A program made the position numbers and the translations under genes. Positions 35,167-46,249 of a DNA stretch of 64,000 nucleotides are shown piece after piece (position 1 is the stretch's first letter; the number at the start of each line of letters is the position of its first letter). The stretch is taken from contig VGZC01000014.1 in the NCBI GenBank assembly GCA_016872725.1, forward strand, positions 1 through 64,000, read 5' to 3'. This DNA is from Planctomycetota bacterium. GTDB lineage: Bacteria > Planctomycetota > Planctomycetia > Pirellulales > Pirellulaceae. The notes beneath the pieces were generated by a model, which saw only the letters and a program-made list of their open reading frames with translations, was not told the DNA's origin and searched no databases.

Positions 35167-35234
35167 ACGCGATGGGCGAGACGCCACCCGCATTGGCACG
35201 GCGGGCGATCGGCGCCCGCGACCGGCCCGCCGCC

Positions 35235-35274
35235 GTTTCGATCCCAAACCAATCGTTTCGATCCCAAACCAATC
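35235..35274. repeat. Perfect 20-bp tandem duplication upstream of the PQQ-propeller gene
   Basis: Two identical 20-bp copies, 35235-35254 and 35255-35274, beginning GTTTCGATCCC and ending ACCAATC. They sit immediately before the start codon region (AAGGAA at 35275-35280) of the gene at 35289. Confidence 0.9.
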
Positions 35275-43170: not shown

Positions 43171-44044
43171 GTCGGTTCACCTCGCGCAGATCCCCGGTGA
43201 CCTCGTCCAACTCCAACACGACCTTGCCGCCGGCCCTGCCATGCCGGCACCGCGCCAACTGGACCTCGAACCGCCGCACGGGTGACAGGATCATGGCACT
43301 TTGGTCCGAGGCGATCGGAACGATGCGAAGCCGCACGTCGGCCCACGACGGCTCGTCGCGGCGCGCGGCGCGCGGCGAACCGCCGGATGCGCCGTCGACG
43401 GAGGGCGGGTCCCGGTTGGAACACCGGACCAGGAAACCGGGCGTTCCGCTCGATTCCGCCGCCAACTGCAGCCTTCGGAACGATCGGCTGTCGAGCCGGT
43501 CGATCGAAATCCAGGCGGCCGAGACGGCCGAGCACCGCAGGATCTGATCGGCCGCCCATAGCGCGTCGCGGGCATCGGCCGGCCGTACGACCAGCAGGCC
43601 CCGCGGCTCGATCCCCCAACCGAACGCGGCGGGCGGATAGAAGGAACGACACCCGTCCACGATGACGATGGGGCGTCCCGATCGGCCGGCTTCCCGAGCC
43701 GCCACGAGCGCGAGGGTCGCCGCTCCGCCACCCGTTTCCCCCCAGAATTCGGCCAGGGCTCCGCGAACAAATCCGCCCAGCGGCAACAGGCGGTCAAGCG
43801 CCTCGCAACCGCTGCCGATCACCGACCAACCTTCTTGCTCGACTCCGCCCCGCGCGACTCCGCATCCGACCCCGCCGCTCGAATCTTCGGCCTCGTACTT
43901 TTCCGGTTGTCTTCCGTTCCCATCCTCCACGCGACCGGACGAGCCTAAGCGGTCAAGCCGATTCGCACGGGCCTCGGCGCGGCGTTCCCCATCCCATCGC
44001 CGCAGTTGGGCGCGCAAACGGTCGACCTGTTCCCGAATGTCCAT
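43079..44044 (-). CDS. imuA: ImuA-like RecA-fold mutasome protein
   Basis: 321 aa from MDIREQVDRLRAQLRRWDGE at 44044. After a polar linker the RecA/SulA-like fold starts at GCEALDRLLPLGGFVRGALAEFWGE, then AATLALVAAREAGRSGRPIVIVD and the beta strands LLVVRP and AAWISIDRL. The Walker A is not canonical, as is usual for ImuA. It is the first gene of imuA-imuB-dnaE2, and works with them in induced mutagenesis. The C-terminal ~30 residues overlap the imuB start in another frame. The family is moderately diverse; the operon makes the call safe. Confidence 0.88.
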   Translation of the reverse strand: MDIREQVDRLRAQLRRWDGERRAEARANRLDRLGSSGRVEDGNGRQPEKYEAEDSSGGVGCGVARGGVEQEGWSVIGSGCEALDRLLPLGGFVRGALAEFWGETGGGAATLALVAAREAGRSGRPIVIVDGCRSFYPPAAFGWGIEPRGLLVVRPADARDALWAADQILRCSAVSAAWISIDRLDSRSFRRLQLAAESSGTPGFLVRCSNRDPPSVDGASGGSPRAARRDEPSWADVRLRIVPIASDQSAMILSPVRRFEVQLARCRHGRAGGKVVLELDEVTGDLREVNRHATLPLSMVPALADPAPSRGGDDSDRAIAR

Positions 44045-44065
44045 GTTCCGTTCGCTCGTTGGTTC
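44045..44065. promoter_or_regulatory. GTTC direct repeats just upstream of imuA; weak candidate LexA-type operator
   Basis: GTTC occurs at 44045-44048, 44050-44053 and 44062-44065 (GAAC on the imuA strand). The last two are separated by 8 nt, one more than the GTTC-N7-GTTC box known from alphaproteobacterial LexA. It touches the start codon region. Suggestive only. Confidence 0.25.
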
Positions 44066-44195
44066 GCTGGGGGGCCCCGTTTGTCGGTCCGTCGCCTGCG
44101 ATAACCCGGCGGCGGCCAACGACCTTTGATTTCAATACACGCCCGACCCGCCGCTCGGGTTCACCGCGCTGTTCGGCGATTGGAACTCGATTCGT

Positions 44196-44296
44196 CCTGC
44201 TCGTGCTCGTGCTCGTGCTCGTGCTCCTGCTCGTACTCGTACTCCTGCTCGTGCTCCTGCTCGTGCTCCTGCTCGTGCTCCTGCTCGTGCTCGTGT
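44196..44296. repeat. Hexamer array (GTGCTC/CTGCTC/GTACTC)n, left arm
   Basis: About 17 units of 6 nt on the + strand, mostly GTGCTC with CTGCTC and GTACTC variants. It replaces the end of the S23p gene. Its sequence is the reverse complement type of the block at 44606-44630. Confidence 0.9.
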
Positions 44297-44605
44297 CCCG
44301 GTTGGCTGCCGGCTCGATTCCGTCCGACACCGTCAATACGTCCTGAATCTCCGCGCACTCCGGTGCCGAACCACGAGCAGTTTCGAACGAACGACAGCGA
44401 TCCTTCAGGATCGTTTTGCCATTTCCCTCCGCGATGTTCAACGCGATCGATTGCCCCGCACGAAGCCGCGGATCTCGGGCACGTCGATACATTCCGGGCA
44501 GTTCTTTCGCTAGGCGAAACGATTCCGCCGCGTATGCGATCGAGAGCCGATAGACATTCAGCTTGTCGTGATCAAAACAGGTTTTATCATCGCCCCCTCG
44601 CCATT

Positions 44606-44630
44606 CGAGCACGAGCACGGGCACGGGCAC
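44606..44630. repeat. Inverted hexamer block (GAGCAC)2(GGGCAC)2, right arm
   Basis: Four 6-nt units on the + strand: GAGCAC twice, then GGGCAC twice. In RNA they can pair with GUGCUC units of the left arm, the GGGCAC units by one G-U pair each. It lies at the 5' side of the S23p reading frame. Confidence 0.85.
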
Positions 44631-44681
44631 TGTACATTTGTATCGTATCGGCGTCAAGCGGCCCGCGTCATGAGATTTCTC

Positions 44682-44767: not shown

Positions 44768-46249
44768 ATGCCCGTGCCCACGCTGATCGAAGCCTTTGAC
44801 CGAGCGCGTCCCGCGCGGTTGATCGTGTTCGGCGATCTGATCCTGGACGAATACACGCACGGCGAGGCGGAACGGATCAGCCAGGAGGCGCCGATCCTTG
44901 TCTTGCGAGCGACGCGGCGCGAAGCGCGGCCTGGCGGCGCGGCGAATGTGGCGAGCATGGTCCGCGCGCTGGGTGCCGAGGTCTGGTGCGCGGGGGTGAC
45001 GGGCGACGACGGACCCGGACGGACGCTGCGCGAATCACTCGACGCCACCGGCGCGCGCGTCGACGGATTGTTCGTCGATGCGACCCGTCCGACGACGCGC
45101 AAAGAGCGATTCGTCGGGCACACCGACGGGCGCAACGCGCATCAGATCCTCCGCGTGGACCACGAGTCGCGCGATGGGCTCTCCGACGATCTCGCGCGGA
45201 GGCTTGGCGACGCGGTCCGCGCCGAACTCCCCCGATGCGACGGCCTGTTGATCGCCGACTACGGCAAGGGCGTCTGTTCGGCCGGCGTTCTGGGGCCGAT
45301 CATCGCGGCGGCCCGCGGCCAAAAAATCCCCGTGCTCGTCGATCCCCGCCGAGGCGCCGACTTCGCGATCTACGGCGGCGCGACGTTGCTCAAACCGAAC
45401 CGGGTCGAAACGGCCCTGGCGACGGGCCGGCCGGTCGGCTCGCCGGCCGACGCCGTCGACGCGGGCCAACGGCTCTGCGCCCGATTCGGCCTCGATATGG
45501 CCGTCGTAACGCTCGACCGCGACGGCATGGCCCTGGTCCGCCGCGACCAGGGCGGGCAGGTCTATCCGACCGAGGCCCGCGACGTGTGCGACATCACGGG
45601 CGCGGGTGACATGGTCCTGTCATGTCTCGGCGTCCTCCTGTGCGGGGGCGTCGCGCCCGAGCCCGCCGTCCGGATCGCGAATCTGGCCGCCGGCATCGAA
45701 GTCGAACGGCTCGGCGTGTCGCCGATCACGCGGGACGAACTGCGGCGGCGGATCGCCGGAACGCGCGGCGCGTCGCCCAAGATCGTCGATGTGGCCGAAG
45801 CCGCCCGGCTCGCCGAGCAATACCGGACCGCCGGCCAGCGCGTCGCGTTCACAAACGGATGCTACGACCTGTTCCACGCGGGGCACGCGATGAGTCTCGC
45901 GGCGGCGGCCGCCGAGGCCGACGCGCTCTTTGTCGGAGTCAACAGCGACGCGTCCGTACGCCGGCTCAAGGGGCCCTCGCGGCCCGTCGTCGGCGAACAG
46001 GACCGGATGGCCGTGCTCGCGGCGCTCGCCTGCGTGTCGCACGTCGTGCTGTTCGACGAGCCGACGCCGCACGCGCTGCTGCGCGCGATCCGGCCCGATC
46101 GGCTCGTGAAGGGAGGCACCTACGCGCCCTGCGACGTGGTGGGGCGCGAAGTCGTCGAGGCGTACGGAGGCGAGGTGCGCGTGACGCCGGTCGTCGAAGG
46201 CCTTTCGACGACCCGGCTGGTCGAATCGATTCGCGAACGGGCCGCTTGA
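44768..46249 (+). CDS. hldE: Bifunctional heptose 7-phosphate kinase / heptose 1-phosphate adenylyltransferase
   Basis: 493 aa, the usual length. The N-terminal ribokinase domain (RLIVFGDLILDEYTHGEAERIS; RPGGAANVASMVRALGAEV; DITGAGDMVLSCLG with the catalytic Asp of GAGD) phosphorylates heptose 7-phosphate at C1. The C-terminal nucleotidyltransferase domain (FTNGCYDLFHAGHAMSL with HxGH; VGVNSDASVRRLKG; KGGTY) makes ADP-heptose. With gmhB at 25586 it supplies the donor for the GT9 enzyme at 26158. AAGGAAG precedes the ATG. Both active-site sets are intact. Confidence 0.96.
   Translation: MPVPTLIEAFDRARPARLIVFGDLILDEYTHGEAERISQEAPILVLRATRREARPGGAANVASMVRALGAEVWCAGVTGDDGPGRTLRESLDATGARVDGLFVDATRPTTRKERFVGHTDGRNAHQILRVDHESRDGLSDDLARRLGDAVRAELPRCDGLLIADYGKGVCSAGVLGPIIAAARGQKIPVLVDPRRGADFAIYGGATLLKPNRVETALATGRPVGSPADAVDAGQRLCARFGLDMAVVTLDRDGMALVRRDQGGQVYPTEARDVCDITGAGDMVLSCLGVLLCGGVAPEPAVRIANLAAGIEVERLGVSPITRDELRRRIAGTRGASPKIVDVAEAARLAEQYRTAGQRVAFTNGCYDLFHAGHAMSLAAAAAEADALFVGVNSDASVRRLKGPSRPVVGEQDRMAVLAALACVSHVVLFDEPTPHALLRAIRPDRLVKGGTYAPCDVVGREVVEAYGGEVRVTPVVEGLSTTRLVESIRERAA

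Follow-up and report, generated by a model that had tools for sequence, protein, structure and literature searches.

The S23p-like reading frame enclosed by inverted hexamer arrays in the window (the whole 64,000-nucleotide stretch analysed, which lies within contig C14 of the 5.24-Mb, 100-contig assembly G000) raised the question of what kind of unit this is and how it could have moved. The earlier note had proposed a repeat-bounded mobile unit at 44196–44657 related to the intervening sequences (IVS) of 23S rRNA genes. The unit proved to be larger and to include an integron attC site at 44091–44176, and the window copy is a relic, a degraded integron gene cassette, with the following parts.

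44091–44176, minus strand: integron attC site (R''-L''-spacer-L'), the final part of the cassette, with the R' GTT mutated (covariance model R1)
44177–44197, minus strand: conserved sequence joining the 3' array to attC, reading GACGAATCGAGTTCCAATCG in the S23p sense and present, with changes, in loci L002, L062, L064, L065 and L071 as well
44198–44295, minus strand: 3' hexamer array of GAGCAC/GAGCAG/GAGTAC units in the S23p sense (TRF, 16.3 copies)
44296–44318, minus strand: junction at which S23p helix 4 is missing and the array starts (comparison with L002 and L072)
44319–44564, minus strand: S23p/four-helix-bundle domain, helices 1–3 only (PF05635, 42.3 bits; TIGR02436, 38.8 bits)
44606–44630, minus strand: 5' hexamer array, in inverted orientation to the 3' array and reading GTGCCC/GTGCTC in the S23p sense (TRF; inverted repeats; pairs with 44198–44226 in the predicted fold)
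44631–44657, minus strand: truncated left end, lacking the leader GTTCGGCGATAATTTCGAGG that L058, L072 and other copies of the genome have

The larger array was found by TRF with period 6 and a score of 147 and the smaller, of the same period, with 4.2 copies and a score of 36; an inverted-repeat search joined them as arms of 24 nt, 92% complementary and spaced by 384 nt. The minus-strand frame 43953–44657 starts inside the 4-unit array and runs out into the 16-unit array, and its residues 32–113 (the domain listed above) matched PF05635 with an E-value of 9.2e-11, above the curated cut-off of 33.8 bits, the match to TIGR02436 of NCBIfam also exceeding its curated cut-off of 24, so that inverted arrays do surround an S23p-like frame that enters both, as had been described. 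No Rfam family, rRNA included, reached the gathering score in a scan of the 64-kb window, and the unit is thus outside 23S rRNA, in agreement with the earlier placement. It stands between the translesion genes imuA-imuB-dnaE2 (imuA ATG at 44044; ImuA and IMS profile matches, the ImuA match being below its own cut-off; the third gene is named dnaE2 from its translation) and a divergent hldE-like gene at 44768–46249. The frame aligns with intact relatives as far as ...AANR and then enters the array. Helix 4 is thus missing with the array in its place, as the note had stated; either growth of the array over helix 4, as the note proposed, or a deletion joining helix 3 to the array may have produced this. 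At R', the window has GGCGAC where L065 has GATCGTT, and the intact GTT crossover point is absent.

The attC site was recognised by covariance model R1, built from 18 attC sites on integrase-bearing contigs of two genomes, G195 and G197 (hand-picked from the plus-strand entries in a script's list of attC-like sites, 11 out of 15 for L294 and 7 out of 8 for L298; at least two of the 18 belong to S23p cassettes). Changes on both sides were found in 15 of the 17 pairs of R1, a covariation that leans towards structure because the selecting script demands arm complementarity; the attC-like list is moreover uninformative on strand because the sites are palindromic and most were found on both strands. 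Applied to the 64-kb window, R1 gave a single match up to E 10 (51.4 bits, E 1e-12). It is on the minus strand, immediately past the 3' array and in the same orientation as the gene, and it was the best among the attC matches listed for the genome. The predicted fold of the site is a hairpin, one arm of which has unpaired bases; attC folding energies were not beyond those of dinucleotide shuffles (z −0.15 to −0.95), and the attC claim therefore rests on the covariance model. Since the unit carries attC, it is a decayed gene cassette in which attC was kept and the crossover point was lost, and it is counted as a relic in view of its mutated R', the loss of the left leader and the replacement of the fourth helix by the array.

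Beyond the window, 42 of 54 planctomycete-type S23p loci were searched with R1, eight copies from Rhodopirellula solitaria near the training set and four truncated loci being left out. In 30 of the 42, attC lay 77–134 nt past the domain; 12 had none downstream, 13 had one just upstream, nine had none anywhere, and all 87 matches were on the S23p strand. Up to E 1, attC was detected in none of the other 26 loci, nearly all of them labelled as other phyla and including L165 (labelled Planctomycetota) and L161 (lentisphaeral, with GTGCTC arrays). The earlier script, now superseded, had placed 22 of 50 planctomycete-type loci above the 99% null against 1 of 25 others. In the R. solitaria copies, the sequence outside the arrays begins with GTTCTGGC and ends with GCCAGAAC, after which come an imperfect palindrome and GTT, an arrangement of R'/R'' and L''/L' that is the one given for attC in PMC2727003. 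The mobile unit of S23p-IVS-like layout proposed by the earlier note is supported; the hexamers, however, had to be rejected as its ends, because the conserved R'/attC sequence, with the boundary at R''/attC, is outside the arrays.

Integron integrase was found above its cut-off in 7 of the 11 genomes searched, 10 of which were relatives picked for many S23p copies. In G195, IntI is located at 180843–181790 of contig C12 (413 bits), and attC-like sites follow an S23p gene whose start is 1.6 kb past the integrase; in a 20-kb stretch 22–30 kb off IntI there are 15 attC-like sites on the plus strand, together with three S23p genes, one of them in two pieces. The sampled attC-like sites of G197 are 4–12 kb from IntI, and an integron of Rhodopirellula baltica is mentioned in a passage of PMC3108266. 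Like integron cassettes and clusters of attC sites in general, the module combines one short gene with an attC that comes after it and is oriented alike, and it occurs in several copies that are nearly identical and, in some loci, with several attC sites; unlike ordinary cassettes, it has inverted arms of its own just inside R' and R'', and the same cargo occurs without detected attC in other phyla. Since the unit is a cassette with attC, its mobility can be explained by a recombinase that is already known, and a cargo can now be named for a set of planctomycete integron cassettes; in the open-access PMC literature, we found no paper joining integrons with S23p or the four helix bundle.

In G000 itself, only integrase fragments and scattered relics, the window copy included, were seen. 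The integrase matches are partial and below the cut-off (model positions 254–315 on C47, 109 bits; positions 2–48 on C19, 43 bits, about 0.2 kb from an array at the end of that contig), and the model matches weakly in all 14 control genomes. A hexamer pattern search gave at least about 20 arrays among the matches listed; 20 stretches were taken, 19 of which were array loci, and together with the window and L002 these made 21 array loci, classed by eye and motif. S23p or a part of it is present in five (the window, L002, L072, L058 and L064), the 3' junction with R'' in six (the window, L002, L062, L064, L065 and L071), and the left end only in eight (L054, L055, L061, L063 and L066–L069), mostly joined to repeated sequence, while L057 has a leader resembling the left end. 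Identity to the window unit is 88% across 331 bases for the L002 unit, whose hexamers are different, and 84% across 354 bases for the L072 unit, which has a broken frame. R1 sites up to E 1 number at least eight in this genome, a lower bound given that 150 of 3788 candidates were scored and L054 480–565 (31.9 bits) is outside the list; five of them (on C14, C29, C22, C58 and C27, thus on different contigs) adjoin hexamer arrays, the C27 site having an E-value of 0.23 in the genome listing and 5.4e-6 in the locus search. The earlier note had left room for the same arrays standing equally at unrelated genes, and only 4 of the 21 array loci (L056, L059, L060 and L070) have long arrays of this type with no S23p or attC trace nearby; the module accounts for most hexamer arrays of the assembly, several of them at contig ends.

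To follow the gene and its arms across bacteria, one genome per species was scanned with the L002 domain, and the best 80 of 151 loci were kept. Among these, 72 loci had full flanks (eight with short or masked flanks were dropped), and an upstream TCG chain (at least three at spacing 6) was found in 64, a downstream CGA chain (at least three) in 57 and both in 55. Dinucleotide shuffles gave 13 TCG and 31 CGA chains in 3600, and control windows of the same loci 9 and 18 in 675, so that all nulls are at 0.4–2.7%. With a 150-base window, the upstream chain was present in 67 of these best 80 loci under 11 phylum labels, many of which are labels of metagenome-assembled genomes, and 42 of the 67 were Planctomycetota. 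Lineages differ in the variable positions of the hexamer, where TGC, TAC and TAA are common and GGA, AAA and CTA come next. Most loci of this S23p type are thus flanked by arrays, as the note had expected of S23p genes, but neither chain was found at any of 26 higher-scoring PF05635 genes of relatives (4 of 30 rows dropped), whose scores suggest that they belong to other subfamilies. No Rfam match was obtained in 20 array-type S23p loci. Five S23p copies of R. solitaria are protein-identical and stand in different places, and near-identical module copies occur in named Rhodopirellula strains. The gene with its arms is a recurrent unit of one S23p gene type, which occurs in integron cassettes of planctomycetes and also, with no attC detected, in loci that carry the labels of other phyla. 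The integron alone was accordingly rejected as a full account: with attC undetected in the 26 loci, it does not explain the module as such, and integrons are one vehicle.

Where intact copies were read, the start codon comes after the 5' arm, and an alternating acidic tail is encoded by the 3' arm (in L176, in frame up to the stop codon), so that selection on the protein could keep the 3' arm. The two arms match each other better within a locus than across loci. For the arm-match test, 45 of the 80 loci were kept, those with short flanks or near-identical arms being left out, and the best complementary match averaged 23.96 with the arm of the own locus against 13.96 with those of other loci (45 non-redundant loci), a sum reached by none of 10000 permutations. 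The 23 ATCG-type loci gave a sum of 575, above the highest value (518) among 20000 permutations, and the 22 non-ATCG loci a p-value of 0.00035, which is tempered by relatedness, since the switch between TGC and TAC on the S23p tree of planctomycetes counts as a single change for the 5' arm and as two changes for the 3' arm. Joint switching of GTGCTC and GTACTC arms in planctomycetes is weakly indicated, by one independent pair. In arm-unit counting, 29 of the 80 loci were left out for having fewer than two countable units in an arm.

The arms had been expected to pair in RNA, and in the predicted fold of the window RNA the 5' array pairs with 44198–44226 in an interrupted stem of 4+1+3+4+5+13 pairs; the effect is modest (z −2.4, with 0 of 100 shuffles as low). 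Predicted stems of 18+21 pairs in L111 (an intact R. solitaria unit, at 1930–2470; z −4.2) and of 35+6 pairs in L176 (z −11, 35 positions being consecutive) likewise enclose the gene, so that in all three loci folded the gene would be enclosed by an RNA stem, as in rRNA intervening sequences. In PMC4990558, the IVS with S23p in Coxiella and Leptospira are described as having a terminal inverted repeat (28 bp in Coxiella) and a long stem, which is cut by RNase III. The module resembles them in its S23p gene enclosed by terminal inverted repeats (the stem being predicted here), in a unit of about 430 bp and in variable-number repeats near the start (heptamers in Coxiella); it differs in being outside rRNA, in arms that are hexamer arrays (TCGNNN / NNNCGA) and in the attC of many planctomycete copies. 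Of the relation to these sequences that the earlier note had drawn, the protein family and the layout are shared; descent from an rRNA IVS is a further step that these likenesses do not show.

The intact protein has S23p as its sole Pfam domain, and to our knowledge S23p has no known catalytic function. Modelling of the L002 protein (mean pLDDT 79) predicted a four-helix bundle with a low-confidence tail, in which helix 4, the one that the window copy is without, comprises residues 94–119. Its best PDB matches were the S23p structures 2gsc and 2rld, followed by the accessory protein Avd of diversity-generating retroelements (DGR; PDB 4dwl, 8ub7), which it resembles in fold with a TMt of 0.75–0.84 for most chains and weak E-values of 0.005–0.12. 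Avd appears in a ribonucleoprotein in the structure listing, and by analogy one might guess that S23p binds its own stem.

We consider it probable that the window holds a degraded integron cassette with an arm-enclosed S23p gene, in which the arms would form a stem, S23p would act as an Avd-like protein and, in planctomycetes, the integrase would move the module. According to this proposal, pairing of the arms, whether in the transcript or in single-stranded DNA, would give a long stem closing off the gene; the Avd-like S23p barrel would bind this stem; RNase III would, as with the terminal stem of a 23S rRNA IVS, cut the unit from host transcripts, so that insertions would do little harm; and the integron integrase would act via attC in planctomycetes, other carriers being needed elsewhere. 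The roles given to the stem and to S23p are suggested by analogy with these systems. In a 2016 paper (PMC4990558), the function and origin of rRNA intervening sequences are called still unclear more than 25 years after their discovery, and both become testable with an S23p module that is free-standing, enclosed by a stem, spread over 11 phylum labels and able to use the integron as one of its vehicles. A bolder extension, put forward tentatively, is that S23p and its period-6 hairpin arms form a self-contained parasitic module that settles at the tips of existing palindromes, namely the loop of an rRNA helix (the classical IVS), the place between the complementary R' and R'' of an integron cassette and perhaps, as a bare hairpin, the centre of a MITE; the Avd-like barrel might read the TCGNNN/NNNCGA ladder on the folded strand, and copying between arms while folded might keep them alike as the hexamer drifts between lineages.

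Among the alternatives, the one that survives best, although we regard it as rather unlikely, is that dispersed period-6 hairpins have in S23p a dedicated partner that aids their spread, integrons, MITEs and other elements being just carriers. Such an arrangement would be like that of REPIN/RAYT, as presented in PMC3116915, in joining a protein gene family to many dispersed hairpin-forming repeats in some genomes, and unlike it in that an Avd-like four-helix bundle would take the place of the tyrosine transposase and that the sampled hairpins of one genome lie in MITEs. Matches to five consecutive ATCGNN units are abundant in some S23p-bearing genomes (297+307 in G266 and 380+386 in G283), a reversed-pattern control giving 0–4 per strand across 23 genomes; yet their numbers in 21 of 23 S23p-bearing genomes run from one to 766, several having one to five, and two have none. 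Close array pairs of G266 (Desulfobacteraceae) were in hairpin order in 29 of 30 cases, in a sample chosen for holding arrays that informs on orientation, not density, whereas in G283, which has the most matches, the 16 arrays in the sampled 152 kb (17 stretches) included no hairpin pair. Hairpins or hairpin-like units without S23p stand beside S23p in L159, L162 and L180, and among 240 family genomes, with relatedness uncorrected, GTRCTC arrays were found in 53 of 116 with an S23p match against 9 of 124 without, although these nine carry arrays with no S23p match. In G266, moreover, 16 elements with both arms have MITE ends and nine have exact target duplications of 7–10 bp (9 of 5000 at random positions), so that an ordinary transposase can explain their spread, and the partner would be a protein with no catalysis known to us.

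It is improbable that the gene is ordinary cassette cargo whose acidic alternating C-terminal tail (EYEY, EHEH, DxDx) gave rise by slippage to the 3' array, the 5' array being a regulatory or slippage copy. The in-frame 3' arm of L176 and the long, slippage-prone array of the window fit such an origin, but in intact copies the 5' arm comes before the start codon, and even so its best match is the 3' arm of its own locus; pairing extends over 35 consecutive positions in L176, and a cause at the protein level agrees poorly with the absence of either arm from all 26 higher-scoring PF05635 genes of relatives. Still less credible is a stand-alone transposon with the hexamers as terminal inverted repeats and S23p as its mobility enzyme; inverted arrays at both ends, multi-copy occurrence and an older suggestion that the IVS frame encodes a component needed for mobility (in a passage of PMC4990558) speak for it, but the conserved planctomycete ends are R'/attC, outside the arrays, and the intact protein has only the S23p domain by Pfam. 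Chance slippage arrays beside a decayed gene, which the four own-genome arrays with no trace of the unit might suggest, can be dismissed on the flank-chain survey, the arm match within loci and the attC match of the window.

Several further observations were made at these loci. A repeat starting with GTAGCTGTCC includes or borders on the left end of the S23p unit, with its array and start region, at about eight own-genome sites, seven recognised by motif and L055 by eye (L054, L055, L058, L061, L063, L067, L068 and L069); an assignment to IS66-type elements was dropped, its short frame having no Pfam match. The 3' half of a PDDEXK_3 gene (PF13366, E 7.3e-14; presumably of the GxxExxY type) abuts the 3' side of the unit at L002 303–569, and a third own-genome PF05635 match (L001 1501–1818, 104 bits) has no arrays and one in-frame TGA. 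Tandem S23p-less hairpins with the same hexamers stand directly downstream of S23p at L159 2340–2700 and L162 2330–2600, both labelled Chloroflexota. The MITE-like elements of G266 (L254–L273, e.g. L255 8874–9020) are 134–177 bp long, with ends of the type GGCATC...GATGCC, such as GGCATC(C/T)TTCAT...ATGAAGGATGCC, and ATCGNN hairpin cores, and a second MITE type of this genome, with ends GGGCTTGGTTCTA, has by eye a similar hairpin core. Finally, at 35234–35274 of the window, a 20-base unit (CGTTTCGATCCCAAACCAAT) is present in two perfect tandem copies.
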